Part shown: positions 40,544 through 64,000 of the stretch, piece after piece
How the letters are laid out: every line of letters starts with the position of its first letter
How positions within the stretch are numbered: position 1 is the first letter of the stretch
DNA from: Alphaproteobacteria bacterium
GTDB lineage: Bacteria > Pseudomonadota > Alphaproteobacteria > Micropepsales > Micropepsaceae
Length of the DNA: 64,000 nucleotides
Direction: 5' to 3'
Assembly (NCBI GenBank): GCA_016124385.1
Contig: WGNU01000004.1
Location: 1 to 64,000, forward strand
Position numbers and translations under genes: made by a program
Notes under the pieces: model-generated
Databases searched by the model: none
What the model saw: only the letters and a program-made list of their open reading frames with translations
What the model was told of the DNA's origin: nothing

Positions 40544-41275
40544 ATGGAACGACCGATCGAGGAAGCGGCAAAGCCGGGGTTTCGCTTTATGCGCCTGGCG
40601 CCGCTCGCCGTGATCCTCTTCGCTGCGGTCGCCTTTTTTGGCCTCGGCCTCAATCGCTACGTGACGCTCGACACGCTGCGCGACAACCGCGAGGCGCTGC
40701 AGGCCTATGTCGCGGCGAACCCGGTCGTCGCGCCCGCCGCCTTCATCGCCGTCTACGCGCTCTCGACGGCGCTCTCCTTGCCCCTCGGCGCGCTTCTCAC
40801 GCTGACCGGCGGCTTTCTTTTCGGCACGCTCTTGGGCACCGGCCTTGTTGTCGCCGGCGCAACGTTGGGCGCGACGATCCTCTTCATCGCCGTCAAGGCG
40901 GGCCTCGCCGATGCGCTCCGCGCCAGCGCCGGCGAGGCGCTCGCCCGCATGGAGAAGGGGTTCGCGGCGAATGCCTTCTCCTATCTTCTGTTCTTACGGC
41001 TCGTGCCGGTCTTTCCCTTCTTCATCGTCAATGTCGTGCCGGCGTTCCTGGGCGTTTCCCTCGCGACGTTCGTCGTTGCGACATTTGTTGGCATCATTCC
41101 CGGCTCGTTCGTCTATGCGAGCGTCGGCAACGGCCTCGGTGCGCTCTTCGACAAGGGCCTCGAGCCCGATCTCGGCATCATCTTCAATTGGGATATCTTG
41201 ATTCCGATCCTGGGCTTGGCCGTGCTTGCGCTCATCCCGGTTGCGGTGAGGGCCTGGAGCGGCCGCAAGACATGA
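40544..41275 (+). CDS. TVP38/TMEM64 family membrane protein
   Basis: LSLPLGALLTLTGGFLFGTLLGTGLVVAGATLGATILF; FSYLLFLRLVPVFPFFIVNVVPAFLGVSLATFV. Confidence 0.92.
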   Translation: MERPIEEAAKPGFRFMRLAPLAVILFAAVAFFGLGLNRYVTLDTLRDNREALQAYVAANPVVAPAAFIAVYALSTALSLPLGALLTLTGGFLFGTLLGTGLVVAGATLGATILFIAVKAGLADALRASAGEALARMEKGFAANAFSYLLFLRLVPVFPFFIVNVVPAFLGVSLATFVVATFVGIIPGSFVYASVGNGLGALFDKGLEPDLGIIFNWDILIPILGLAVLALIPVAVRAWSGRKT

Positions 41276-41288
41276 CGGCGGGGGAGCT

Positions 41289-42713
41289 ATGACGGGAAGG
41301 ATCAAGGCCGACATCTGCGTCATCGGCGGCGGATCGGGCGGGCTTTCGCTCGCCGCGGGCGCCGCGCAGCTTGGCCAGAAAGTCGTGCTCATCGAAAAGG
41401 GCAAGATGGGCGGCGACTGCCTCAACTATGGCTGCGTTCCCTCGAAGGCGCTGATCGCGGCTTCCAAACGCGCGCACGCGTTCCGCGCGAGCGCCGAATT
41501 CGGCATCGCGCCGGCCGAGCCCGTAATCGACTTTCGGCGCGTGCACGACCACATCCACGAGGTCATCGCGGCGATCGCGCCGATCGACAGCGTCGAGCGC
41601 TTCGAGGGGCTGGGCGTGACGGTCATCCAGGCGCCCGCCCGCTTCACTGGCCCGATGGAGATCGAGGCGGGCGGAAAAACGATCCGCGCGCGCCGCATCG
41701 TTATCGCGACGGGATCGCGTGCGGGCGTGCCGCCCATCCCGGGCCTGAGCGAGGTGCCTTACCTCACGAACGAGACGCTCTTCGACAATGTCGCGCTGCC
41801 CCGCCACCTCATCATCATCGGCGCGGGGCCGATCGGCATGGAGATGGCGCAGGCCCATCGCCGCCTGGGCGCGGAGGTGACGGTGCTCGATGCCGGTCCC
41901 GCCCTCGCCAAGGATGATCCCGAACTCACCAAGATCGTTCTGGATCGGCTGCGCCACGAGGGCATCGTCCTGCGCGAGAGCGTAAAGATCGCCCGCGTCG
42001 CGGGAACGGACGGTGCGATCACGGTGACGCTCTCGGGCGATGCCGGTGAGGAGACGATCACCGGCAGTCATCTGCTCGTCGCCGCCGGGCGCGTCCCCAA
42101 TGTCGAAGGTCTCGATCTTGAAAAGGCGGGCGTGCGCTACAGCCGCAGAGGCATCGAGGTCGATTCGCGGCTGCGCAGCAGCAACAAGAAGATATTCGCC
42201 GTCGGCGACGTCGCGGGCGGACTTCAGTTCACCCATGTCGCGAACTATCACGCGGGCCTCGTCATCCGGAACGTGCTCTTCCGCTTTCCGGCTTCACAGG
42301 ACACGCGCGCAATTCCCTGGTGCACCTATACTGATCCCGAACTGGCCCATGTCGGCCTCACCGAAGAGGAAGCGCGCAAGTCACACGGCCAGGTGACCGT
42401 GCTGCGCTGGCACCTCAAGGAAAATGACCGCGCCCAGGCCGAGCGCGAGACCGAGGGCCTGGCGAAGATCGTCGTCGACAAGCGCGGGCGCATCCTCGGC
42501 GCCTCCATCGTCGCGCCGGGTGCCGGCGACCTGATCCAGGTGTGGGTGCTGGCGATCACCAAGAAACTGAAGATCGCCGACGTGCAGGCGATGGTCGTCG
42601 CCTACCCGACGCTCGGCGAGATCAGCAAGCGCGCGGCGGGCGCCTATTTCACGCCCACATTGTTCTCGCCCCGCGTGCGCCTTCTCGTCCGTTTGCTGAC
42701 CAGCATCGGCTGA
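41289..42713 (+). CDS. FAD-dependent pyridine nucleotide-disulphide oxidoreductase (MerA/Lpd-like)
   Basis: CVIGGGSGGLSLAAGAAQLGQKVVLIEKGKMGGDCLNYGCVPSKALI; VGDVAGGLQFTHVANYHAG; ATLGE-type dimerisation domain YPTLGEISK. Confidence 0.93.
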   Translation: MTGRIKADICVIGGGSGGLSLAAGAAQLGQKVVLIEKGKMGGDCLNYGCVPSKALIAASKRAHAFRASAEFGIAPAEPVIDFRRVHDHIHEVIAAIAPIDSVERFEGLGVTVIQAPARFTGPMEIEAGGKTIRARRIVIATGSRAGVPPIPGLSEVPYLTNETLFDNVALPRHLIIIGAGPIGMEMAQAHRRLGAEVTVLDAGPALAKDDPELTKIVLDRLRHEGIVLRESVKIARVAGTDGAITVTLSGDAGEETITGSHLLVAAGRVPNVEGLDLEKAGVRYSRRGIEVDSRLRSSNKKIFAVGDVAGGLQFTHVANYHAGLVIRNVLFRFPASQDTRAIPWCTYTDPELAHVGLTEEEARKSHGQVTVLRWHLKENDRAQAERETEGLAKIVVDKRGRILGASIVAPGAGDLIQVWVLAITKKLKIADVQAMVVAYPTLGEISKRAAGAYFTPTLFSPRVRLLVRLLTSIG

Positions 42714-42760
42714 TCGCGACACCCTGACGAATCGCCGGCGGTTCTGCTATCAGAGCCGCC

Positions 42761-44197
42761 ATGACTGTTTGGCAAAGATTGAGGGCGCTGGGCCGCCGGC
42801 TGGTCGCGCCGTTCACGCGCAGCCTGTCGGGACGGCTTCTCCTGCTCACGATCGCCTTCGTGATGTTGAGCGAAGTCATCGTCTATATTCCCTCGCTCTG
42901 CCTCTATCACACAAACTTGCTCTCGATGCGCCTTGCCGCAGCCCAATTGGCCGCGCTGCCGCTTTCCGAGACGGATCGCGATGCCCTCTCGGATGATCTG
43001 CGCCGCGAATTGCTCGCGAACGCGGGTGTCATCGCGGTCTCGCTCAAGCGCTCCGAAACGCGCGAACTTTACCTCGCCGAGGAGATGCCGCCGCAGATCG
43101 ACGCGGCCTTCGACATTACGTCGCCGACGTATCTCTCGATGCTCGCTGACACGTTTGATGCGCTGACAGCGCCGGCTGGCCGCACGATCCGCATCATGGG
43201 GGTGCCCCGCCTGCGCGGCGGCGAGAAGATCGACGTCGTGATGAACGAGGACGAGATTCGCGGCGAGTTGTTCGCCTATTCACAGCGCATCTTTCTGCTC
43301 TCGCTGCTTATTTCCGGCGCGACGGCGCTCCTCGTCTTCGTCAGCGTTTCATGGGCCTTCGTGCGGCCGGTGCAGCGCCTGACGCGCAACATGCTCGCCT
43401 TCCGCGAACGGCCAGAGGATGCGTACCGCATCCTGGAGCCCTCCGGCCGGGAAGATGAGATCGGCCGTGCGGAAGAAACCCTCGCCCAGATGCAGAGCGA
43501 GCTGCGCATGGCGCTGCATCAGCGCGCGCATCTGGCGGCACTGGGCACGTCGGTCGCCAAGATCAATCACGATTTGCGTAATCTGCTTGCGACCGCGCAA
43601 TTGACCTCCGATCGCATCGCGACCGTCAGCGATCCGGCGGTCCAGCGTTTGGCGCCCCGCCTCATCAGCGCGATCGACCGCGCGGTGGAGCTCACTTCGG
43701 CCACCCTGCGCTATGCCCGCGCGGAGGAGGCGGCGCCCCAACGCCGCCTCGTTCCCCTGCGCCCGGTCGTCGAGGAGGTGCTGACCGCCTGCGAAACGCA
43801 AGGCCCCGTCACGGTCGAAAACCTCGTGCCGGGCGAGATCGAGATCGACGCCGATCCGGATCAATTGTTCCGCCTTCTGATGAATATCGTTCGCAACGCC
43901 GTTCAGGTGCTCGAGGCGCAGGGCCAGGGCAGCGTACGCGTCATCGCGATCAAGAGCGCGGGCAAGGCCGTCATCGACATCGCGGATAACGGCCCGGGCA
44001 TCCCCGAACGTGCACGCGAACATCTCTTCGAGCCCTTCACGGGCAGCGCGCGCAGCGGCGGCACCGGCCTTGGCCTTGCGATCGCGAAGGAGCTTGCGCT
44101 CGCCCATGGCGGCGACATCACGCTGATCCGCACGGGCGCGGAGGGAACCGTCTTTCGCATCACGATTCCCGATTCCGATCTCGAGGACGGCGCGTGA
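42761..44197 (+). CDS. Sensor histidine kinase (orphan)
   Basis: TM-periplasmic-TM-HAMP; AKINHDLRNLLATAQL; NIVRNAVQVLEAQG; IADNGPGIP; GGTGLGLAIAKELALAHGG. Confidence 0.9.
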   Translation: MTVWQRLRALGRRLVAPFTRSLSGRLLLLTIAFVMLSEVIVYIPSLCLYHTNLLSMRLAAAQLAALPLSETDRDALSDDLRRELLANAGVIAVSLKRSETRELYLAEEMPPQIDAAFDITSPTYLSMLADTFDALTAPAGRTIRIMGVPRLRGGEKIDVVMNEDEIRGELFAYSQRIFLLSLLISGATALLVFVSVSWAFVRPVQRLTRNMLAFRERPEDAYRILEPSGREDEIGRAEETLAQMQSELRMALHQRAHLAALGTSVAKINHDLRNLLATAQLTSDRIATVSDPAVQRLAPRLISAIDRAVELTSATLRYARAEEAAPQRRLVPLRPVVEEVLTACETQGPVTVENLVPGEIEIDADPDQLFRLLMNIVRNAVQVLEAQGQGSVRVIAIKSAGKAVIDIADNGPGIPERAREHLFEPFTGSARSGGTGLGLAIAKELALAHGGDITLIRTGAEGTVFRITIPDSDLEDGA

Positions 44198-44973
44198 GCT
44201 GGGACCCCGGCCAATATTTGCGCTTCACGGATGAACGCAATCGCCCGGCGATGGACCTGCTCGCGCGCGTTCCGCTGGATGTGCCCGCGCGCATCATCGA
44301 TCTGGGCTGCGGGCCGGGGAACAGCACGGCGCTTCTGGCCGCCCGCTTTCCGCGCGCCGCGCTTTTAGGCGTTGATTCCTCGCGCGAGATGCTGGCGCGC
44401 GCCCGCCGCGAGGGCCCGCCAAACTCGGATTGGCTGGAAGCGGATGCCGGCAGCTTCACGCCGGCCGTCCCGCCCGACCTCATTTTTTCCAATGCGCTCT
44501 TTCAATGGGTGCCGGATCACGCGCCGATCCTCGCCCGCCTGCTCGGCACGCTCGCGCCGGGTGGCGTGCTGGCGGTTCAGATGCCGCGCAATTTCGACGC
44601 TCCCTCCCATCGCGCGATCCGCGAAGTGGCGGCGGAAAGTCCCTGGGCGGCGGTGCTCAAGCCGCTGATCCGCGAAGACCCGGTCGCCGGACCCGAGAAG
44701 TATTTTGCCGCGCTGCACCCAAGAGCCGCGAGCCTCGACCTCTGGGAGACCGAATATTGCCACGCGTTGTCGGGGGAGCATCCGGTCCTCGAATGGGTGA
44801 AAGGCACGGCGCTGCGGCCCCTGCTCGCGGTTCTGGATAGTCATCACCGCGACGTCTTTCTGTCACATTTGGCCGAACGACTGGCGCGCGCCTATCCAAG
44901 GCGTGACGATGGCGTGACACTGTTTCCCTTTAGACGACTATTTATTGTAGCGACACATTCCCCCGAACACTAG
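44194..44973 (+). CDS. tam: Trans-aconitate 2-methyltransferase-like SAM methyltransferase
   Basis: SWDPGQYLRFTDERNRPAMDLLARVPLDVPARIIDLGCGPGNSTALLAARFP; GTG start overlapping previous stop. Confidence 0.88.
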   Translation: MSWDPGQYLRFTDERNRPAMDLLARVPLDVPARIIDLGCGPGNSTALLAARFPRAALLGVDSSREMLARARREGPPNSDWLEADAGSFTPAVPPDLIFSNALFQWVPDHAPILARLLGTLAPGGVLAVQMPRNFDAPSHRAIREVAAESPWAAVLKPLIREDPVAGPEKYFAALHPRAASLDLWETEYCHALSGEHPVLEWVKGTALRPLLAVLDSHHRDVFLSHLAERLARAYPRRDDGVTLFPFRRLFIVATHSPEH

Positions 44974-45044
44974 ATTTTGCTGCGGCTGCGCAATCCCGCC
45001 GGTACACTCGGGCAAGACGAATCACCGCAAGGGGAGAGCTCGCG

Positions 45045-45692
45045 ATGGCAATGGTCGTCACGGTGGCGCAGCAGAAGGGCGGCGCAGGCAAGACCTCGGT
45101 GGCGGCCCATCTGGCCTGCGCCTGGGCGGGGCGCGATCTGAACGGCTCGGCCAAGCGCGTCACGCTCATCGATCTCGATCCGCAGGAAAGCCTCACGGCC
45201 TGGTTCCGCCTCCGGGAGGAGCTGCTGGGGGACGATGAAAAGATCGATCTGCGCCCGACCAGCGGCTGGCGCGTGACGAGCGAGATCCAGCGCGCCCAGC
45301 GCGATTCCGACCTCGTCATCGTCGACAGTCCGCCGCACACCGAAACCTCGACCCGCATCGCGATCCGCTCGGCCGATCTGATCGTCGTGCCGTGTCAATT
45401 ATCGCCGATGGACGTTTGGGCCTCGCGCCCGACGCTCGAAATGATCGAGAAGGAAAAGCGCCAGGCGCTGGTCGTGCTCAACCGCGTGCCGCCCCGCGCG
45501 CGCCTCGCCGATGAATTGGTGCTGCAGCTGAAGCGCGACCGGGTGCCCCTGGCGCGCGCCGCGCTCGGCAATCGCGTCGCCTATGCCGCGAGCCTGATGG
45601 GCGGGCGCGGCGTCACCGAGGCCGAGCCTCATTCCGTTGCGGCCGCCGAGGTGCGCCTCCTCGCCAGCGAAGTCTTGCGCCGGGCGCACTAA
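45045..45692 (+). CDS. ParA family ATPase (orphan)
   Basis: VTVAQQKGGAGKTSVAAHLACAWA; LIDLDPQESLTAWF; VDSPPHTET. Confidence 0.9.
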   Translation: MAMVVTVAQQKGGAGKTSVAAHLACAWAGRDLNGSAKRVTLIDLDPQESLTAWFRLREELLGDDEKIDLRPTSGWRVTSEIQRAQRDSDLVIVDSPPHTETSTRIAIRSADLIVVPCQLSPMDVWASRPTLEMIEKEKRQALVVLNRVPPRARLADELVLQLKRDRVPLARAALGNRVAYAASLMGGRGVTEAEPHSVAAAEVRLLASEVLRRAH

Positions 45693-45711
45693 CCGCGCCA
45701 CAACGGAGATC

Positions 45712-46680
45712 ATGATCTCCGAGGCGCGCGCACTACTGGCGGATGTCGGCGGCACGAATGTCCGCTTCGCGCTCTCCGATTCGAGCGGCGCGCCGACCGC
45801 CATCACCATTCATCAGACGGCGGACTATCCCCATTTCGAGGCGGCGGCCGCTGCCTATCTCGCGCAATTCGGCCACCCGATCTTGAGTGCCGTCGTCGTT
45901 TGCGCGGCCGGGCCGCTCGCCGATGGCCGCATCCACATGACGAACTGCCCCTGGGTGATCGACCCGCAAGCGATCGCGGCGGCGACCGGCTGCCCACGCG
46001 TGCAACTCGTGAACGATTTCGCCGCGATGGCCGCCGCGCTCCCGCATCTCCCTGACGGCTCCTGCCATCCCATCGGCGGCGGCACGATTGACGCCTCCGC
46101 CCCGCGTGTCGTCATCGGCCCTGGCACGGGCCTCGGCGTCGCCGCGCTTGTCCCCGCCGGCGAGGGGCGCTCGGTCGTCGTGCCGTCCGAGGGCGGCAAC
46201 ATCTCGCTTGCGCCCGAAACGCCGCGCGAGATCGCGATCATCGAGCGCCTGACGCGCGTGGGCGCGCCCCTGCGCGTCGAACAGCTGCTCTCGGGCTCCG
46301 GCTTGCCCAACCTCTATGCCGCGCTCGCCGCATTGGAAGGGGAAGAGGCCACTCCGCTCACCGCCGCCGAGATCGCCGCGCGCGCGGCGGGGAAAGGCGA
46401 TCCGCTCGCCCTTGAGACGCTGCAGATCTTTGCTGGCTGGCTCGGCGCCTTCGCTGGCGACATGGCGCTCGTCTTCACCGCGCGGGGCGGCGTCTATCTG
46501 GGCGGCGGCATCCTGCCCAAATGGGGCGCGCTCTTCGATGAGCGCGTCTTTCGCACGCGCTTCGAGGGCAAGGGCGTCTTCCGCGACTATCTGACGGGCA
46601 TTCCTGTCTTGCGTATCGAGCGAGAGGACACGGCGCTTTTCGGCCTCGCCGCGCTCGCCCGCGAAGCATCCGCGCGCTAA
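45712..46680 (+). CDS. glk: Glucokinase
   Basis: ALLADVGGTNVRFALSD; GPGTGLGVAALVP; PSEGGNISLAPETPREIAIIERL; start ATG 45712. Confidence 0.93.
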   Translation: MISEARALLADVGGTNVRFALSDSSGAPTAITIHQTADYPHFEAAAAAYLAQFGHPILSAVVVCAAGPLADGRIHMTNCPWVIDPQAIAAATGCPRVQLVNDFAAMAAALPHLPDGSCHPIGGGTIDASAPRVVIGPGTGLGVAALVPAGEGRSVVVPSEGGNISLAPETPREIAIIERLTRVGAPLRVEQLLSGSGLPNLYAALAALEGEEATPLTAAEIAARAAGKGDPLALETLQIFAGWLGAFAGDMALVFTARGGVYLGGGILPKWGALFDERVFRTRFEGKGVFRDYLTGIPVLRIEREDTALFGLAALAREASAR

Positions 46681-46714
46681 GTTTGCGCCTGGCAATCGCG
46701 GAGGAACAGCAATC

Positions 46715-47110
46715 GTGGCGAAACTCGAACATTTTACGCGGCCGGAAGTCGCCGCACTCGGTCTGCCGTTCTCCGAGGCCGTGCGCCTCGGCGACACGAT
46801 CTATCTCTCGGGCCAGCTCGGCATGCAGCCGGGCACCGCCAAGCTCGTGCCTGGCGGCATCGAGGCGGAATCGCGCCAGACGATGGAGAACATCGGAACG
46901 ACATTGAAGGCGCTGGGCCTCGGCTATGGCGACATCGTCAAATGCCTCGTCATGCTCACCGACATGAGCGAATGGGCGACTTTCAACGCGGTCTACGTCA
47001 CCTATTTCGAGAAGGGTCGCTTCCCCGCGCGCAGCGCGCTCGGCGCGAACGGGCTAGCGCTCGGCGCGCGCGTCGAGGTCGAGTGCATCGTCCGCGCGCC
47101 GTCGAGCTAG
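46715..47110 (+). CDS. RidA family protein
   Basis: FSEAVRLGDTIYLSGQLGMQPGTAKLVPGGIEAESRQTMENI...PARSALGANGLALGARVEVECIV. Confidence 0.93.
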   Translation: MAKLEHFTRPEVAALGLPFSEAVRLGDTIYLSGQLGMQPGTAKLVPGGIEAESRQTMENIGTTLKALGLGYGDIVKCLVMLTDMSEWATFNAVYVTYFEKGRFPARSALGANGLALGARVEVECIVRAPSS

Positions 47111-47117
47111 GCGGGCG

Positions 47118-48137
47118 ATGCGCCCCGGACCCCGCAATCTCATCACCGATGTCGAGGGGCTGACCGTCGGCCACGCGGCGGACGCGCGCGCTTGGACGGG
47201 AACGACCGTGATCCTGCCGCGCGATCGCGCGGTCGCCTCCGTCGCGACATTCGGCGGCGCGCCCGGCACGCGCGAGACCGACGCGCTTCAGCCCGAAACG
47301 CTGGTCGAGGCGGTCGATGCGATCGTGCTCTCGGGCGGCTCGGTCTTCGGGCTGGCGGCGGCGGACGGCGTCGTGGCCTGGCTGGCGGAGCAGGGGCGCG
47401 GCTTTGCGATCGGCGGCGTGCGCGCGCCCGTCGTCCCCGCCGCGATCCTCTTTGATCTGACGAATGGCGGCGAGAAGGAGTGGGGCGCGGAGCCGCCTTA
47501 TCGCGCGCTCGGCCGCGCGGCGGTGGCCGCCGCCGCCAGCGACCACGCGCTCGGCAATGCGGGCGCGGGCTTCGGCGCGCGCGCCGGCGCCTATAAGGGC
47601 GGCCTCGGCTCGGTCTCGGTCGCGGACGAGGGTTTCACGGTCGGCGCGCTCATCGCCGCCAACCCGTTCGGCTCGCCGGTGATGCCGGGCACGGGCACGC
47701 TCTGGGCGTTCGCGCTCGAACAGCAGCGCGAACTGGGCCATCAGCATCCCCCCGCCCCCGTGACGGATGCGCTCCGCGCCGCCTTCCCTGCGGACGTGAA
47801 GGGCGCGCCGGTCGCCGGCACCAATACGACCATCGGCGTCGTTGCGACCGATGCGACGCTGACGCCGGCCGAAGCGAAGCGCTTGGCGATCATGGGGCAA
47901 TCAGGCCTTGCCCGCGCCGTACGCCCGATCCATACGCCCTTTGACGGCGACGTCATCTTCGCGCTGGCGACGGGCGCGCGCCCGCTGCCGGAGCCGCGCG
48001 CGGCCACCCTTCTGCGGCTCGGCCACATGGCGGCCGATTGCACCGCGCGGGCGCTGGCGCGCGGCGTCTTCGAAGCGCGCGCCCTCGGCCCCTGGCAGGC
48101 CTACCGCGATGTGCACCGGGCAAGCTTCGGCGTTTAG
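47118..48137 (+). CDS. P1 family peptidase (DmpA-like)
   Basis: NLITDVEGLTVGHAADARAWTGTTVIL; ETDALQPETLVEAVDAIVLSGGSVFGLAAADGV; GAGFGARAGAYKGGLGS. Confidence 0.92.
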   Translation: MRPGPRNLITDVEGLTVGHAADARAWTGTTVILPRDRAVASVATFGGAPGTRETDALQPETLVEAVDAIVLSGGSVFGLAAADGVVAWLAEQGRGFAIGGVRAPVVPAAILFDLTNGGEKEWGAEPPYRALGRAAVAAAASDHALGNAGAGFGARAGAYKGGLGSVSVADEGFTVGALIAANPFGSPVMPGTGTLWAFALEQQRELGHQHPPAPVTDALRAAFPADVKGAPVAGTNTTIGVVATDATLTPAEAKRLAIMGQSGLARAVRPIHTPFDGDVIFALATGARPLPEPRAATLLRLGHMAADCTARALARGVFEARALGPWQAYRDVHRASFGV

Positions 48138-48225
48138 CCGCCTCTTCCCAGCGCGCCTCGCCAAGGATTTAATGCCGCCAAAGCAACACGCCGCGCAAAG
48201 ACGGCTGTCATCAGGGAGGAATGCG

Positions 48226-49842
48226 ATGGCCTGGAACTACGGCGATATCATGGACCGCGTGGCGAAGGTCGTGCCGTCCGGCGCGCCGGCCCTCATCCAC
48301 GGCGACCGCGTGATCGATTGGCAGACCTTCGATCGCCGCACGAACGCGCTCGCCCGCGCGCTGATCCTGCGCGGCCACGCGCCCGACGACAAGCTGGCGA
48401 TCCTGCTGCGCAACAGCCCGGAATACATGGAAGCGACGATCGCCGCCTTCAAAGGCCGCTTCGTCCACGTGAACGTCAACTACCGCTACAAGGCCGACGA
48501 GCTCCACTACATCTTCGACAATTCGCAGAGCCGGATCGTCGTCTTTGGCAGCGAGTTCGCGCCGCTGATCGCCGAAATACGCGACCGCCTGCCCGACGTG
48601 AAGACCTGGCTTCAGGTCGATGTCGATGGAACGCCGCGTCCCGATTTCGCGCTCGCCTATGAAAGCCTCATCGCCGGCAACGATGGACCGCCGCTGCAGA
48701 TCACCCGCTCGCCCGACGACATCTTCATGCTCTATACGGGCGGCACGACCGGCATGCCCAAGGGCGTGATGTGGCGGCACGATGATCTGCGCCAGACGCA
48801 GCTGAACCCCGCGCTGATGGAAGTCGTGCCGACCAATCTCGACGAGCACGCCAAGATCATCGAGACGCAAGGCCCCGGCAGCCGCTTCGTTCCCGCCTGC
48901 CCGCAGATGCACGGCACGGGCCTCCTCACCTCGTTCGGCGCGCTCGCGATGGGGGGCGCCGTCATCACCCTCGAAAGCCCGAGCTTCGATGCGGTGGAAC
49001 TCTGGAAGGCGGTCGATCGCTGGAAGGTGCAGAGCATCGCGATCGTGGGCGATGCGTTCGCCAAGCCCATGCTGCGCGCGCTCGAGGCCAATCCCGGCGC
49101 GTTCGATGTCTCATCGGTCGTCTCGATCATTTCCTCGGGCGTCATGTGGAGCGAGGAGGTGAAACGCGGCCTCATCCGCCTGATGCCGCAGGTCGCGTTG
49201 ATGGACAGTTTCGGCTCGTCCGAGGCGGTGGGCTTTGCGCTCTCTGTCGCGACGGCGGAAGGAACGAGCGAGACCGCGAAATTTCAGCTCGGCGAGGACG
49301 TCGCGGTCTTCACGCCGGATTTGAAGCCCGTCACGCCCGGCAGCACGGAGCCCGGCTACATCGCGCGCGGTGGCAACATTCCGGTCGGCTATTGGCGCGA
49401 CGAGGCGAAGACGGCAAAGACCTTCCCGACCATCGATGGGCGGCGCTGGTCCATCCCCGGCGATTACTGCCTGCTGCACGAGGATGGCACGATCACGCTG
49501 CTCGGGCGCGGCAGCGTGTGCATCAACACATCGGGCGAGAAGGTCTACCCGGAAGAGGTGGAGGAGATCTTGAAGGAGCACGGCGATGTGGAGGACGCGC
49601 TCGTCGTCGGCGTGCCGGATGAGCGTTGGGGCCAGGCCGTCACCGCCGTCGTCGAGCTGCGCAAGGGCGCCGCGTTCGACGAGAACGAACTGCGCGCCCA
49701 TGTCCGCGCGCGGCTTGCGGGCTATAAGACGCCCAAGCGCATCGTCGCGACGCCCCGGCTCTTCCGAGCGCCCAACGGCAAGGCGGACTACAAGGCGACG
49801 GCCGCCTTTGCGGTCGAAGCGCTGGGCGTCAAGGCAGGCTAG
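48226..49842 (+). CDS. Acyl-CoA synthetase/ligase
   Basis: [67 protein letters not shown]; start ATG 48226. Confidence 0.93.
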
Positions 49843-49991
49843 GGGAGCGGCCGGCCGCACGATGGTGGGCGGCTTGCGCGCCTGCCGGCCATGTCCACAC
49901 CATCGGGGGCGGGCTTGCATCTGCCGGCTCGACCCCTTAGCTTCCGCGCCTCGCATCGGCGACCGGCTCTTTCGGCGCCCACGCACGGCAG

Positions 49992-50068
49992 GCACCCGTA
50001 GCTCAGCTGGATAGAGCACCAGACTACGAATCTGGGGGTCAGAGGTTCGAATCCTTTCGGGTGCGCCA
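49992..50068 (+). tRNA. tRNA-Arg (anticodon ACG)
   Basis: Cloverleaf: acceptor GCACCCG/CGGGTGC, anticodon arm CCAGA-CTACGAA-TCTGG, T arm AGAGG-TTCGAAT-CCTTT, encoded CCA; 77 nt. Confidence 0.96.
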
Positions 50069-50167
50069 TTTCTTGTTCGTCACCGTCTCCGGTGGCGGTT
50101 CTGGCCAGGAGCAGGTCAGACGCGCTGAACAACATCGACGGTGCTGTGTGCTACAGGGGTCAAGGCA

Positions 50168-57443: not shown

Positions 57444-57475
57444 CGGGTGGGGGGTGCTGCCTCAGACCCCACCCG
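57444..57475. promoter_or_regulatory. Inverted repeat CGGGTGGGG-N14-CCCCACCCG upstream of the CurA-like gene
   Basis: Perfect 9-bp arms at 57444-57452 and 57467-57475. Confidence 0.5.
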
Positions 57476-57588
57476 AAAGAAGGTGCCGGCGCGGCTTCCG
57501 CTGTGCAGGGTTGACCGCCAAGCATAAGGTCCCGGGCGCCCCGCGGCGCCCGAGAAACGGCCAACACCAACGACCGGAGGAACAGGCC

Positions 57589-58620
57589 ATGAGCGGCATC
57601 CCGAATGCGATCAAGAGCTGGTACTTCGCAGAACGGCCCAAGGGCGATCTCGACGACACGACGCTCGCCCTCCGCACCGTGCCGCTGCCCGAATTGGCCG
57701 ACGGGGAGATCCTGGTCCGCAATATCTATCTCTCGCTGGACGCAACGAACCGCGTATGGCTCAGCGACTGGGACAGCTACATGGAGCCGGTGCGCCTCGG
57801 CGAGCCGATGCGCGGCTTCATCATTGGTGAAGTCGTTCACTCGAAGAACGCGCAATTCCCCAAGGGAGCGTTGGTGTCGGGCCTTTCGAGCTGGTCGGAC
57901 TATGTCGTCACGAACGGCGAGGGCTTTCAGACCTATACGGGCATCGCCGGTCTCGATCTTGCTGAAGCGTTCGGCATTTTGACGGTCGCGGGCCCCACCG
58001 CCTATGTCGGCCTCGTCGAGATCGGCCAGCCCAAGCCTGGGGACACGGTGGTTGTCACCGCCGCGGCCGGGGCGGTCGGCGCGCTCGTCGGGCAGATCGC
58101 GAAGATTTATGGTTGCCGTGCGATCGGAATTGCCGGCTCGGCTGAAAAATGCGCATGGCTGACGCGCGAGCTCGGCTACGATGCGGCGATCAACTACCGC
58201 ACGGAAGACGTGGACAAGCGCCTCGCCGAGCTGGCGCCGGACGGCATCGACATCCAGTTCGAGAACGTCGGCGGCGATATTCTCGATTCAGGTCTCAAGC
58301 ACATGAAGAATGGAGGCCGCGTGATCATTTGCGGTCTTATCTCGACCTACAATTCGCCGGGCGAGACGGCGCCGGGTCCCAAGATGTTCCGCAACGTGAT
58401 CATGCGCCGTCTCCGGATCGAGGGCTTCGTCATTCTCGATTACCTGGCGCGCTATCCCGAGTTTCACGAGAAACTCTTAGGCTGGATGCGGGACGGCCGT
58501 CTGAAGTATCGCCTCCACGTCGTTGACGGTCTGGAGAACGCGGCGGGCGCGCTCAAACTTCTCTACACCGGCGGCAATCACGGCAAGCTGATGGTGAAGA
58601 TCGGCGATCCGCGCGCTTAA
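57589..58620 (+). CDS. NADP-dependent oxidoreductase (CurA-like MDR family)
   Basis: LADGEILVRNIYLSLDATNRVWLSDWDSYMEPVRLGEPMRGF; VVVTAAAGAVGALVGQIAKIYGCRAIGIAGS; NVGGDILD. Confidence 0.93.
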   Translation: MSGIPNAIKSWYFAERPKGDLDDTTLALRTVPLPELADGEILVRNIYLSLDATNRVWLSDWDSYMEPVRLGEPMRGFIIGEVVHSKNAQFPKGALVSGLSSWSDYVVTNGEGFQTYTGIAGLDLAEAFGILTVAGPTAYVGLVEIGQPKPGDTVVVTAAAGAVGALVGQIAKIYGCRAIGIAGSAEKCAWLTRELGYDAAINYRTEDVDKRLAELAPDGIDIQFENVGGDILDSGLKHMKNGGRVIICGLISTYNSPGETAPGPKMFRNVIMRRLRIEGFVILDYLARYPEFHEKLLGWMRDGRLKYRLHVVDGLENAAGALKLLYTGGNHGKLMVKIGDPRA

Positions 58621-58738
58621 CCCTCCAGCCTACTCGCTTGCCACGATCACTGATCTAGGCCCTATAATCGGTATCGCGCAGGAAGGGCGGCTCCGCTGGG
58701 TGCCCCAAAAAAGAAGCGCGTCCACGGAGGAAGTGCCA

Positions 58739-61453
58739 ATGCCCGAGAGTGCGGGCAATCTTGGACTCACGCGACCGCGAGTTGACCCGGTCCGAAGCGT
58801 GCGCCGCGCCGCGCCGCTCGCGAAACTGAACGACTCGCCCCATGCCAAGCTCGTCGTCATCCACGCGCCCGCGGGGTTCGGCAAGACGACTTTGCTGCGC
58901 CAATATTGCGCGGAGCTGTCCGAACGCGGCGGCGGGCGATGCGTTTGGGTGCATCTCGATGAGACGGCGCGCGACGCTCCTCAGTTCATGCGCCTGGTCC
59001 ACACAGCCCTTCGCGGCCATCTCGGCGGCGCTGCGCAGAGACCGGCCGCGCGCGCGATCAAGAGTTCATCGCCGCGCGAAATCAGGGCGGCCCTCGACGC
59101 GGCGGGGCCCGGCACGGTCCTGGTGATCGACGACTACGAGCTCGCATGCCAGGCCGGCGCCAACGAGGTTCTCTATCAGCTTGTCCGCCAGCTTCCGCAG
59201 GGCGTCCGCATCTTTCTGGGAACCCGCGTGCTGCCGGGCGCGCTGACCTCGCGCTTGCTCGTCAAAGGAGAGGCGCTGGTGCTCGGCGCCGATGACGTCC
59301 GCTTTGGTTTGGGCGAAACGCGCGCGCTTTTCAGCGATTCGGCCGGTCTGGCGGGCGACGAGGTCGAGTGGATCCAGTCCTGCACGGAAGGCTGGCCCGC
59401 CGCGTTGCAGTGTTTCCGGCTGTGCATCAGCGGCGGACGGTTTCGCCGTGGTCTCGCGTACCAGGGAAACGGCGTCACGCCCGAACTGATCAGCTACCTC
59501 GCCACCGAAGTTTTCGAGGCCTTGAGCGAGCGCACCCGGCAATTGCTGCTGGCGACGTCGTTACCCGATCTCGTCTGTCCCGAACTCGTCGAGCACATTT
59601 CCGACGTTCGCTGCACGCAGGACGATCTCGAGGGCCTTGTCGAGGCGGGGCTCTTTCTCATGCCTGTCGATCTCGACCGCCGCTGGTACCGGTTTCACAA
59701 CGTGTTTCGCCGCGTGATGCTCGCCCGCCTGACGAGCGACCTCGATCCGCCGCAATTGCTGGCGCGTCATCGCCTGGCGGCGGATTGGTTCACGACGAAT
59801 GGCTACGAGGAGGAGGCGATCAAGCACCTCCTCGCGGCCAATGATCCAGAGGCGGCCGCCGCCTTGCTCGATCACCGCGCATGGCACCTCATCAACGAGG
59901 AGCGCCTCGATTTCATCACCAGCCTTGTCGATGAGTTGCCCGAGAAGACGGTCAAGAAATATCCCGACATTCAGGCCGCCGCGACGATCGCCTATGGGTT
60001 CCGCCGCGAGTTCGCGAAGGCGAACCGCATGCTCGAGGTCCATCGCCGCGATCTCGAACAGCTGAAGGACGCGGCGAGTGAGGAGCAATGGGGGCTCTTT
60101 AACAGCCTGCAGATCTTCGTTCTCGCGGCGCAGGACCGGATGGCCGAGGTCGCCTCGAACGCTGAGCTGACGCTGTCTCAACTCGCTCCCCGCCATGGCT
60201 TGCGTTACGCCGTCGCCCTGAACGCGCACGGCTTCTGGCTGCACGCCAACAGCAAGTTCGAAGAGGCGCGCAAGGAACTGTCCGAGGCGCGCCCGCTCCA
60301 CACGCATGAGCACTCGCTGTTCGGCCGCGCCTATCAGGAGGCGATCCTGAGCGGCGTCTTGACCGCGCAGGGGCGGATCAGCGATGCCAAGGCCAGCCTG
60401 AGAACGACGTTGCGCGAGATCGAGCAGGCCATTTCGGCGACGGCGGGCTCGACCATCGCCGCTTATCTCGCCGAGGCGCACTATGAACAGAACGAAACGG
60501 CGGCTGCCGAGGAGCTGCTCGCCGACTATCTCCCGCTGATCGACCAGCAGGCGATCGTCGATCCGCTCGCCATCACCCACCTGACGCGGGCGCGCATCGC
60601 GCTGCGCCGCAATCTTCCCGGCGAGGCCGATCGCATCATCGAACACATGATGGAGCTTGGGCATCGCCACGATCTGCGGCGCCTCGTCCATTACGGGCGC
60701 ACCGAGCTTGTCCGCCAGGCGACGCTCGCGGGCGACATGGATCTTGCGACGCGCCGGCTCGAAGCGTTCTTCGGCGGGGCGGAACCGAAGCTGCACGCCG
60801 ATCTGCTGTTTCACGCCGGTGAAATCGAGGCGCAGACGATCACCTATGCGCGCTATCTCGTGCATGCCGGCCGTTATGGCGAGGCGCGCGCGCTCCTGCA
60901 GACGCAACTACGCAAAGCTAAGCTGCTGCGCCGCCGGCGCCGGCAAATGAAGCTCGGTCTCCTGCTCGCGATCGCTCTGGATGAAGAGGGCGAAAAGGCC
61001 CTCGCGCGCCGCACGCTGCAGGATGCCCTCGAGATCGGCATGCCCGGCGAATTCGTCCGCTCGATCCTCGATGAGGGTCCGCGCATGACGCGTCTGCTCA
61101 AGGAGGTTTATTCCACCCGCGGCCGCCGGCCGGAGATCGTCGAGAATGATCCCGTAAACGCCTATGTGGAGTTTCTGCTGCGCACCGATGGCGAGCGGCT
61201 GGAGATCGAGGAGACGATCGAAGCGGGCGTGCTTGATGAGGACGCGGTGTTGCGGTTCGACACGCTCACCGCGCGCGAGCGCGAGATCCTGACGCTCGTC
61301 TCAAATGGCTTTGCGAACAAGGATTTGGCGGGCCGCTTGGGCGTGTCGACGAATACGGTGAAATGGCACCTGCGGAACGTCTTTGAGAAGCTGCAAATTT
61401 CCAATCGCGTTCAGGCCATTTCGGTGGCCCGGCATTTTGGTCTGATCAACTAG
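58739..61453 (+). CDS. LuxR-type LAL (MalT/AcoK-like) ATPase transcriptional regulator
   Basis: Walker A HAPAGFGKTTLLRQYC; long TPR-like region; C-terminal LTAREREILTLVSNGFANKDLAGRLGVSTNTVKWHLRNVFEKLQISNR. Confidence 0.95.
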   Translation: MPESAGNLGLTRPRVDPVRSVRRAAPLAKLNDSPHAKLVVIHAPAGFGKTTLLRQYCAELSERGGGRCVWVHLDETARDAPQFMRLVHTALRGHLGGAAQRPAARAIKSSSPREIRAALDAAGPGTVLVIDDYELACQAGANEVLYQLVRQLPQGVRIFLGTRVLPGALTSRLLVKGEALVLGADDVRFGLGETRALFSDSAGLAGDEVEWIQSCTEGWPAALQCFRLCISGGRFRRGLAYQGNGVTPELISYLATEVFEALSERTRQLLLATSLPDLVCPELVEHISDVRCTQDDLEGLVEAGLFLMPVDLDRRWYRFHNVFRRVMLARLTSDLDPPQLLARHRLAADWFTTNGYEEEAIKHLLAANDPEAAAALLDHRAWHLINEERLDFITSLVDELPEKTVKKYPDIQAAATIAYGFRREFAKANRMLEVHRRDLEQLKDAASEEQWGLFNSLQIFVLAAQDRMAEVASNAELTLSQLAPRHGLRYAVALNAHGFWLHANSKFEEARKELSEARPLHTHEHSLFGRAYQEAILSGVLTAQGRISDAKASLRTTLREIEQAISATAGSTIAAYLAEAHYEQNETAAAEELLADYLPLIDQQAIVDPLAITHLTRARIALRRNLPGEADRIIEHMMELGHRHDLRRLVHYGRTELVRQATLAGDMDLATRRLEAFFGGAEPKLHADLLFHAGEIEAQTITYARYLVHAGRYGEARALLQTQLRKAKLLRRRRRQMKLGLLLAIALDEEGEKALARRTLQDALEIGMPGEFVRSILDEGPRMTRLLKEVYSTRGRRPEIVENDPVNAYVEFLLRTDGERLEIEETIEAGVLDEDAVLRFDTLTAREREILTLVSNGFANKDLAGRLGVSTNTVKWHLRNVFEKLQISNRVQAISVARHFGLIN

Positions 61454-61498
61454 TCAGGCCGCGCACCCCTCCGCGCGCAGCGCCAACTTTCGACAATC

Positions 61499-61522
61499 CT
61501 TTCGGGTGGGGCACATCGCCCC
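61499..61522. promoter_or_regulatory. CTTTCGGGTGGGG box followed by GGGGC-N5-GCCCC, upstream of the carboxylase-like operon
   Basis: Same 13-mer occurs inverted at 57467-57479. Confidence 0.45.
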
Positions 61523-61599: not shown

Positions 61600-63477
61600 G
61601 TGGGCTTGCTCGTGACGATCGACAATGGCGGCACACTGACGGATTTCTGTGCGACGGACGGCGAGCGCCTCATCCACACGAAATCCCTGACGACCCCGCA
61701 CGATCTCTCGGAATGTTTAATGAGCGGGTTGGCTTCCGTCGCCGAGATTTTTGGCGAGGGCGACGACCTCACGCGATTCATCTCCAAGATCGACTACATC
61801 CGCTATTCCACGACTCAGGGCACGAACGCACTGGTGGAGCGAAAAGGCCCGCGTCTGGGATGGCTGACCGACGAGGCGGCGTTGGTCTCCGCGGTGCGCG
61901 GCGCCAATGGCGAGCTCTTCGAGGCGATGGTCGGCGGGCGCGTCGCGATCACGGATCCGGGCGCGGATGAACAGCGCCTCGCCAAGGAAATTTCCCGTCT
62001 CGTCTCGGAAGGGGCTAACCGCATCGTCGTGGGCTATGCGGGCAAAGAAGCGGCCGAGTGGGAGCGGCGGACCAAGCGCCAGCTCTATCGTACGTTTCCG
62101 CGCCATCTGCTTGGCGCCGTGCCGCTTCTGTTCGCCTGCGAACTCGCCCCCATCGGCGCGCCGCATCGCCGCGTCTGGTCCGCGTTGCTCAACGCGTTCT
62201 TGCATCCCGCGATGGAGCAGTTTCTCTACAATGCCGAGAACAAGCTGCGCGCCCATCGCGCGCGCAATCCGCTCCTCGTGTTCCGCAACGACGGCAATTC
62301 GACACGCGTCGCCAAGACGATCGCGCTGAAGACGTACTCTTCGGGTCCCGAAGGCGGCATCGTCGGCGCACAGCAGATCATCCGCCACTATGGCATCCAA
62401 AGGGCCGTCTCCATCGATATCGGCGGCACGACGACGGACATCGCGTTCTTCGCTGAGGATCGCGTCGATCGCGACTTCTTCGGCGAGATCGAAGGATCGC
62501 CCGTCGCGATTCCGATGACCCGCGTCATGAGCGTCGGCGCAGGCGGCAGCTCGATCTTCAGCGTGAGCGGCGGCGCGCTGCGCGTCGGCCCCGAAAGCGT
62601 GGGATCGGCGCCCGGGCCCGCCTGTTTCGCGCGCGGCGGCACCGAAGCGACGATCACTGATGCGCTGTTGCTCGAAGGCGTTCTCGATCCCACGACTTAC
62701 TTCGGCGGCAAGCTGCGTCTCGATCCGGCGCGCGCCGAACGCGCCATCATGAGCCGCGTGGGCGAACCCTTGGGGCTCGATCTCCCCGGGGCCATTGAGG
62801 CGATGAAGAACGCCTATGAGCGCCGCATCGCCAAGGCCGTGCAGACCGAAGGGACGCTCACGCCCGGAACCGTGTTGATCGCCTTTGGTGGCGCGGGTCC
62901 CATGAGCGCGTGCGGCATTGCCCAGACACTCGGCTTGCGCGACGTCTTGATCCCGCGCCAGGCGGCGGTCTTCAGCGCTTATGGCATCGCCTTCTCCGAT
63001 GTTCAGCACAGCTACCGCACCAAGCTGGACGGCCGGCCGGTCGAGTCCGCCAAGGCGGATCTGCTCCGCCAGGCCGAGCGCGGCATGCGCGCGGAGGGCT
63101 TCGCGCTGTCGGACTGCACTACCCATTTCATGCAGCTGATCGAGGAGGGAGAGGCCTGCCGCGCGGCGCCCGTGAGTGACGCGCCGAAGGGGAAGGCATC
63201 GTCTTGGCTTGAGCTGACGGTGGTCAAGGCGATTCCCCGGATCACAATTCCTGAGGGTGCCCCCGAGCGCCGCCGCGACGCGGAATCGATTGGGGTGCGC
63301 CGCGGCCAGAAGCCTTTGCCGCTCTTCGAGCTGGAGGCCATGCGTCCCGGTGACGGGGGCGATGGCGCGTGCCTGATCGAGGAGCGCTTCTTCACCACCT
63401 ACGTTCCGCAAGGGTGGCGGTTTCTCATCGCCGCTTCGGGCGACATCTTCCTGACCAGAACGGAGGACGCGCGATGA
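61600..63477 (+). CDS. Hydantoinase/oxoprolinase (HyuA) family protein, acetone/acetophenone carboxylase subunit-like
   Basis: VTIDNGGTLTDFCA; STTQGTNALVERKG; SIDIGGTTTDIAFF; GAGPMSACGIA; GTG start. Confidence 0.9.
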   Translation: MGLLVTIDNGGTLTDFCATDGERLIHTKSLTTPHDLSECLMSGLASVAEIFGEGDDLTRFISKIDYIRYSTTQGTNALVERKGPRLGWLTDEAALVSAVRGANGELFEAMVGGRVAITDPGADEQRLAKEISRLVSEGANRIVVGYAGKEAAEWERRTKRQLYRTFPRHLLGAVPLLFACELAPIGAPHRRVWSALLNAFLHPAMEQFLYNAENKLRAHRARNPLLVFRNDGNSTRVAKTIALKTYSSGPEGGIVGAQQIIRHYGIQRAVSIDIGGTTTDIAFFAEDRVDRDFFGEIEGSPVAIPMTRVMSVGAGGSSIFSVSGGALRVGPESVGSAPGPACFARGGTEATITDALLLEGVLDPTTYFGGKLRLDPARAERAIMSRVGEPLGLDLPGAIEAMKNAYERRIAKAVQTEGTLTPGTVLIAFGGAGPMSACGIAQTLGLRDVLIPRQAAVFSAYGIAFSDVQHSYRTKLDGRPVESAKADLLRQAERGMRAEGFALSDCTTHFMQLIEEGEACRAAPVSDAPKGKASSWLELTVVKAIPRITIPEGAPERRRDAESIGVRRGQKPLPLFELEAMRPGDGGDGACLIEERFFTTYVPQGWRFLIAASGDIFLTRTEDAR

Positions 63478-63872
63478 AGGTCTTCGTCACGGATGCCCTG
63501 ACGATCGAGCTCGACACGGAGCGATGGCACTGCGCGCGCTGCGCGCATGACATCGCGCCCGCGCGCGCAAACTACAAATCCGGGCTCCTCGTGCGCGAGC
63601 GCGAGCCGTCGGAAATCCACGCGCCGATCATCGATCCCGCGCGCTACGAATTCACCTTCGCGCCGGACCCGGATTGGTGCCGCATCCTGGAATATTGCTG
63701 CCCCAATTGCGGGCGCCTGGTGGAAGTGGAGTATCTGCCGCCGGGCCATCCGCCGGCGCACGACATCGCGCTCGATATTGATGCGCTGAAGGCCCAATGG
63801 GCCGGGCGCGATCGCCTGGCGGCGCCGGTGCTCGGCCCGGATTTTATTCCGCCCCCCCATCACGATCACTGA
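63474..63872 (+). CDS. Acetone/acetophenone carboxylase gamma-like small subunit (zinc-ribbon type)
   Basis: Cys pairs WHCARC and YCCPNCGRLVEVEYLPPGHPPAHDIALDID; ATGA overlap with the HyuA-like gene. Confidence 0.8.
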   Translation: MKVFVTDALTIELDTERWHCARCAHDIAPARANYKSGLLVREREPSEIHAPIIDPARYEFTFAPDPDWCRILEYCCPNCGRLVEVEYLPPGHPPAHDIALDIDALKAQWAGRDRLAAPVLGPDFIPPPHHDH

Positions 63873-63886
63873 CGGATCGAAAAATC

Positions 63887-64000
63887 ATGCGGCGCGTTTC
63901 GGTAGACATCGGCGGCACGTTCACGGATTGCTCCCTCGTGTGGGACGGCAAGTTCGTTGAAGCGAAATCACTGACCACGCACCACAATCTCGCGCTTGGA
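63887..64000 (+). CDS. Second HyuA-like protein, N-terminus, truncated by window edge
   Basis: MRRVSVDIGGTFTDCSLVWDGKFVEAKSLTTHHNLALG; canonical DIGGTFTD. Confidence 0.85.
   Translation, partial: MRRVSVDIGGTFTDCSLVWDGKFVEAKSLTTHHNLALG

Follow-up and report, generated by a model that had tools for sequence, protein, structure and literature searches.

The window analysed here is a stretch of 64,000 nucleotides, positions 1-64000 of contig WGNU01000004.1 (69,374 bases), from a 2.43 Mb alphaproteobacterial assembly of the family Micropepsaceae (GCA_016124385.1). At its 3' end the window runs into an operon of five genes, A-B-C-D-E, which is completed by the 5.4 kb of contig that follow (Table 1). 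A sequence-only reading of the window had described a HyuA-like gene, a small Cys-rich subunit and a second HyuA-like gene, translationally coupled or closely spaced. All three genes are present as described; the stop of A and the start of B overlap in an ATGA (63474-63477), and C starts (63887) 14 bases past the stop of B. A HyuB-like subunit and an ApcE-like protein had been anticipated past position 64000, and both are found there as D and E, in place of an ordinary hydantoinase/oxoprolinase pair. The order A-B-C-D-E recurs in dozens of genomes; this repeated gene order and whole-length matches with E-values down to 7e-166 establish the operon as real, far beyond chance. No sigma-70-like promoter was found by a simple scan, a result that carries little weight in a GC-rich genome.

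Table 1. Coordinates of the operon and of the features beside it, in positions of the contig.
Feature	Position	Strand	Description
CurA-like NADPH ene-reductase (MDR family)	57454-58620	+	likely true start ATG 57589
Second operator-like copy	57466-57480	-	about 110 bases before the likely start of the CurA-like gene
LuxR/MalT-type (LAL) transcription regulator	58700-61453	+	directly 5' of A
Putative operator AATCCTTTCGGGTGGGGCA	61495-61513	+	between regulator and A; conserved site
A, ApcA-like alpha'	61600-63477	+	HyuA-like, 625 aa, 67 kDa, GTG start
B, ApcB-like gamma	63474-63872	+	132 aa, 14.9 kDa, PF08882
C, ApcC-like alpha	63887-66025 (in window to 64000)	+	HyuA-like, 712 aa
D, beta	66048-68324, past window	+	HyuB-like
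E, ApcE-like epsilon	68317-69000, past window	+	227 aa; fold from family model
Acetoacetate-CoA-ligase-type gene, C-terminal 125 aa	68997-69374, cut by contig end	- (convergent)	sequence match

Among all solved structures, the two HyuA-like proteins find their best matches in the core complex of acetophenone carboxylase (Apc; 5L9W): A in the ApcA chain b (E = 9e-77) and C in chain B (7e-166), with acetone carboxylase and oxoprolinase clearly behind the Apc chains. A also matches the Pfam families PF01968 (4e-65) and PF05378 (1e-18). All three ATP-site motifs of the ASKHA fold are kept in both proteins, and in A they read DNGGTLTD, DIGGTTTD and GSAPGP. The difference between DNGGTLTD in A and DIGGTFTD in C had been taken as a sign of subunit specialisation, which is borne out by the lineage to which the window belongs, as all 23 of its alpha' sequences have DNGGTLTD. 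The corresponding signature of Apc alpha' is DTGGTMTD. The R/KERiDsxG fingerprint is seen in C as IRERVAENG, in which RER and the last Gly are retained and the Asp is lost, and is absent from A. Two polar residues of ApcA tentatively assigned to bicarbonate binding, E248 and K281, are replaced by Ser and Asp in A, which makes the assignment of separate roles to alpha and alpha' tentative.

The small protein B had been read as a gamma-like subunit of about 15 kDa with two Cys pairs, and this description holds (Cys20/Cys23 and Cys76/Cys79 in a protein of 14.9 kDa). It belongs to the Pfam family named for the acetone carboxylase gamma subunit (PF08882, 6e-39), and its best match among gamma subunits of known structure is ApcB (5L9W chain C, 3e-32), the alignment with acetone carboxylase gamma being weaker (9e-11). 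The four zinc-type cysteines are invariant in 11 sequences including ApcB, where their counterparts are Cys22, 25, 75 and 78; the N-terminal extension of about 50 residues seen in acetone carboxylase gamma is missing from B. The best solved match of D is ApcD (5L9W chain A, 7e-81), again well ahead of acetone carboxylase and oxoprolinase, and D keeps the Apc metal site as D95/H158/D161/H183. In acetone carboxylase the manganese ligands are E89, H150, D153 and H175, the proposed place of the new C-C bond (PMC5543143), so that a Glu there corresponds to an Asp in D. The same D/H/D/H ligands occur in the host genome's own oxoprolinase, a separate gene elsewhere. In another branch, beta and gamma are fused in one frame at three loci (L042, L049, L035), with PF02538 followed by PF08882, both above Pfam cut-offs.

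The fifth protein, E, has no match in Pfam or NCBIfam, and single-sequence and profile searches gave nothing useful. An iterative profile of E drifted onto shadow ORFs and was replaced by a curated set of sequences; hhalign of this family against one ApcE sequence gave a weak match (probability 9.9), and ApcE itself has a weak match to URO-D. An AlphaFold model of the epsilon family, built with 32 homologues, reached a pLDDT of 95.8; the sequence modelled is a Parvibaculaceae homologue 39% identical to the E of the window genome, which at 227 residues is shorter than the E of its relatives. The best fold match of this model in the PDB is ApcE (9FOU, E = 1.4e-6, TM 0.63-0.69), followed by URO-D-like barrels. 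As judged from the family model of this 39%-identical homologue, E is predicted to be a subunit of the ApcE fold. The 2017 structure paper described ApcE as highly divergent, with close orthologues reported from just two further gene clusters (PMC5214803). In our comparison an epsilon gene stands at the same place in 62 of the 68 operons with enough downstream sequence and in 0 of 3 acetone carboxylase loci; epsilon is here a regular part of the window lineage.

A scan of public genome contigs with protein A alone returned no match; an alignment of gamma subunits used as the query located 285 places, including plasmids of Rhodococcus and Neorhizobium, and 80 loci were fetched, among them loci of Parvibaculum, sphingomonads, Solimonas, Hydrocarboniphaga, Xanthobacter, Azotobacter, Burkholderia, Azospirillum and Geobacter. 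A quick tree was built from Apc, acetone carboxylase (Acx) and hydantoinase-family sequences, with SH-aLRT as the only support measure and some long branches, such as that of A (0.66, against 0.18 for C). In this tree one split parts alpha' from alpha, and the alpha' and alpha subunits of the window cluster with ApcA and ApcC rather than with Acx or the hydantoinase families (supports 97 and 98). There are three Apc-type lineages: Apc proper, a third lineage (L066, L165, L168) and the window lineage, whose 23 alpha' and 18 alpha sequences (support 100 each) stand apart from Apc, Acx and the hydantoinase families. Members of the window lineage come from Parvibaculum, sphingomonads, Solimonas, Xanthobacter, Azotobacter, Rhodococcus, Geobacter and others, and a search of open-licence papers found no characterised member. 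The phylogeny that had been suggested against these three families places A and C on the Apc side, in a lineage of their own.

Several genomes carry more than one such system. A groundwater betaproteobacterium (G780; L162-L167) has seven gamma genes, with Apc proper, the third lineage and the window lineage all present. In Solimonas (L130, L143) a pair of operons of the window lineage, complete or almost so, stands in tandem; each has its own ligase, and the first apparently lacks an epsilon gene directly after D. In one alphaproteobacterial genome a cluster resembling acetone carboxylase adjoins an Apc-type operon (L070/L101).

From these data we conclude that the operon most probably encodes an ATP-dependent, biotin-independent ketone carboxylase of the Apc type (alpha alpha' beta gamma epsilon), in a separate, uncharacterised lineage. 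The principal alternative is a diverged but genuine acetophenone carboxylase that makes benzoylacetate. The gene order and the five kinds of subunit are those of apcABCDE and the best solved matches are Apc subunits, yet A, C and D share only 28-38% of their residues with the Aromatoleum proteins, and fall, like B, far short of the NCBIfam equivalog cut-offs (298/1250, 138/250, 582/1500 and 307/1500 bits, with no match for E). The alpha pocket, formed in Apc by Leu81, Phe281, Asn282, Gln344 and Thr345, reads T/I/H/H/L in C, and the H, H and L do not vary among the 18 alpha sequences of the lineage. Another genome has a true ApcB (87% identity) together with the rest of its operon, and there apcE is followed by a PaaK-like ligase, unlike the acetoacetate-CoA-ligase-like gene here; G780, moreover, holds both Apc proper and the window lineage. 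We regard this alternative as improbable. The operon belongs to the Apc branch but is not acetophenone carboxylase itself, and its substrate is probably another ketone, acetophenone being disfavoured by the pocket, the type of ligase and the sequence distance.

That the enzyme is instead an acetone carboxylase appears very unlikely. The gamma subunit does match the Pfam family of that name and enzymes of the acetoacetate-activating type do adjoin the operon, but acetone carboxylase has one HyuA-like subunit (PMC5214803) and the operon has two HyuA-like genes and an epsilon gene as its fifth; B is without the N-terminal extension, D has Asp for the Glu ligand of Acx, the window sequences lie outside Acx in the tree, and some genomes have separate Acx-type operons in addition (L070, L072, L074). 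The earlier view that Apc was the better fit is therefore upheld by the best matches of A-D in 5L9W, by the pair of HyuA-like genes, by the ApcE-like E and by the apcABCDE order. A hydantoinase- or oxoprolinase-type ATP-dependent hydrolase with extra subunits, acting on an amide, is equally hard to credit: A, C and D are of the same superfamily and the beta D/H/D/H ligands are shared with the host's oxoprolinase, but that enzyme is encoded elsewhere, known hydantoinases consist of two genes with no gamma, alpha' or epsilon (PMC5214803) whereas a PF08882 gamma subunit is present here, and the operon is linked to 3-oxoacid activation and thiolases.

The genes beside the operon bear on the fate of the product. 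Complete homologues of the ligase that is cut by the contig end are found beside the operons of relatives and pass NCBIfam cut-offs. In a ligase tree the operon-linked enzymes form a branch of their own, with 12 ordinary acetoacetate-CoA ligases apart, and two unlinked ligases in or beside that branch come from genomes that also have a ketone carboxylase gene. On the evidence of this tree we reject the notion that the ligase serves ordinary acetoacetate metabolism. Genes that recur beside the operon in this lineage encode the ligase (35 loci), an SDR dehydrogenase (24), thiolases (12) and a 3-oxoacid CoA-transferase (7-8); the regulators are of the LuxR/MalT type (36 loci) or sigma-54 activators (19). 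The layout of the window, with the CurA-like reductase, the LuxR/MalT-type regulator, ABCDE and the convergent ligase, is also that of Parvibaculum, and a Geobacter locus (L152) has ABCDE, CobW, CoA-transferase A/B and thiolase in a row. At four Rhizobiales-type loci (L118, L124, L131, L156) a second, dedicated sigma-54 factor, CobW and a 3-oxoacid CoA-transferase lie by the operon.

Homologues of the LuxR/MalT-type regulator occur in 36 related loci, in many of them directly before A, and in the Parvibaculum loci a CurA-like gene is kept before the regulator. A site resembling CCACCC-N3-GGGTGG precedes A in 22 of the 36 loci that have the regulator and in none of the 46 that lack it, and occurs in 1% of random stretches. 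Because some of the loci counted also served to refine the pattern by eye, these counts are descriptive. The copy in the window is a weaker variant which the strict pattern does not count but which aligns with the other copies, and its 15-base core has three close copies elsewhere in the window. Copies of the site also precede the CurA-like gene in 14 of 21 cases, with a palindromic CACCCTTTCGGGTGG at this position in relatives, and thiolases in three sphingomonad loci. The regulator thus appears to pair with the operator-like site, and together they tie the operon to the CurA-like reductase.

The operon may have been acquired by this genome. Within the family, the gamma gene is found in the window genome alone among 96 genomes, and a ligase of the linked type in 0 of 47 relatives, which suggests that operon and ligase were gained jointly by transfer. 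Synteny with a genome of the same genus (G001) covers 40544-50118, reaching the tRNA-Arg gene at 49992-50068, and ends there; everything from about 50.1 kb up to the end of the contig may be a region acquired at this site. The ORFs scanned immediately past the tRNA gene include no integrase. The 3' end of the tRNA-Arg gene (50050-50068) is repeated at 61495-61513, and we considered this repeat as an island attachment site; that reading was rejected because the second copy is the conserved site before A in relatives. The assembly is 74% complete, so the rest of the pathway can be checked only in part.

Our analysis, coupled with what is known of Apc and Acx, suggests a model for the activity of this carboxylase, in which we infer each catalytic step and the class of substrate; what the data themselves show is the gene content, the homologies, the conserved motifs and sites, the gene linkage and the modelled fold. 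In Apc the genes run in the order alpha', gamma, alpha, beta and epsilon, apcABCD(E), and the enzyme uses two ATP at two kinase sites and requires epsilon (PMC5214803). By analogy, C (alpha) would phosphorylate the enol of the ketone at the expense of one ATP, while A (alpha') would turn bicarbonate into carboxyphosphate with the second; the C-C bond would form near the metal site of D (beta), B (gamma) would act as a structural zinc subunit, and E (epsilon), as a URO-D-like barrel, would be needed for the coupled reaction. The adjacent ligase, or in other lineages a 3-oxoacid CoA-transferase, could then turn the product, a 3-oxoacid, into its CoA thioester, which a thiolase would cleave. In the branch with the CurA-like gene, the ketone may itself come from an unsaturated ketone.

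To carboxylate inert ketones with ATP and without biotin is unusual chemistry. We consider it reasonably likely that the window represents a widespread five-subunit lineage for ketones beyond acetophenone and acetone, for example longer methyl ketones or, in one branch, ketones from the reduction of unsaturated ones, with a dedicated subfamily of 3-oxoacid-CoA ligases, an epsilon subunit nearly throughout and, in some of its members, a regulator and operator of its own. The Apc branch held one characterised enzyme at the time of the 2017 structure paper (PMC5214803). The present analysis reveals a large sister lineage of Apc in cultured, tractable bacteria, with a signature for its alpha' subunit and with the elusive epsilon as a regular component; the linked genes and the operator hint at the chemistry of the product and in this way make the substrate directly testable.

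A comparison with characterised enzymes highlights what is shared and what sets this lineage apart. ApcABCDE of Aromatoleum aromaticum EbN1 (core 5L9W, epsilon 9FOU) has the same five-subunit order and resembles the window operon in its two ASKHA ATP sites, the zinc cysteines of gamma, the metal site of beta, the fingerprint of alpha, the predicted epsilon fold and an adjoining CoA ligase; it differs in sequence (about 28-38% identity in A, C and D), in its alpha pocket and in the ligase, which is of the PaaK type there and of the acetoacetate-CoA-ligase type here. Two-component systems are reported for Aromatoleum (PMC4729919), whereas a LuxR/MalT-type regulator adjoins the window operon. AcxABC of Xanthobacter and Aromatoleum (5SVB/5M45) shares the zinc-binding gamma, the HyuA-like and HyuB-like subunits and a metal site in the latter, but has a single HyuA-like subunit, no epsilon, a longer gamma and Glu for Asp at the metal site, and forms a separate clade. 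HyuAB, 5-oxoprolinase and the caprolactamase CapAB are of the superfamily of A, C and D; they consist of two subunits, or one fused protein, without gamma, alpha' or epsilon, and hydrolyse amides.
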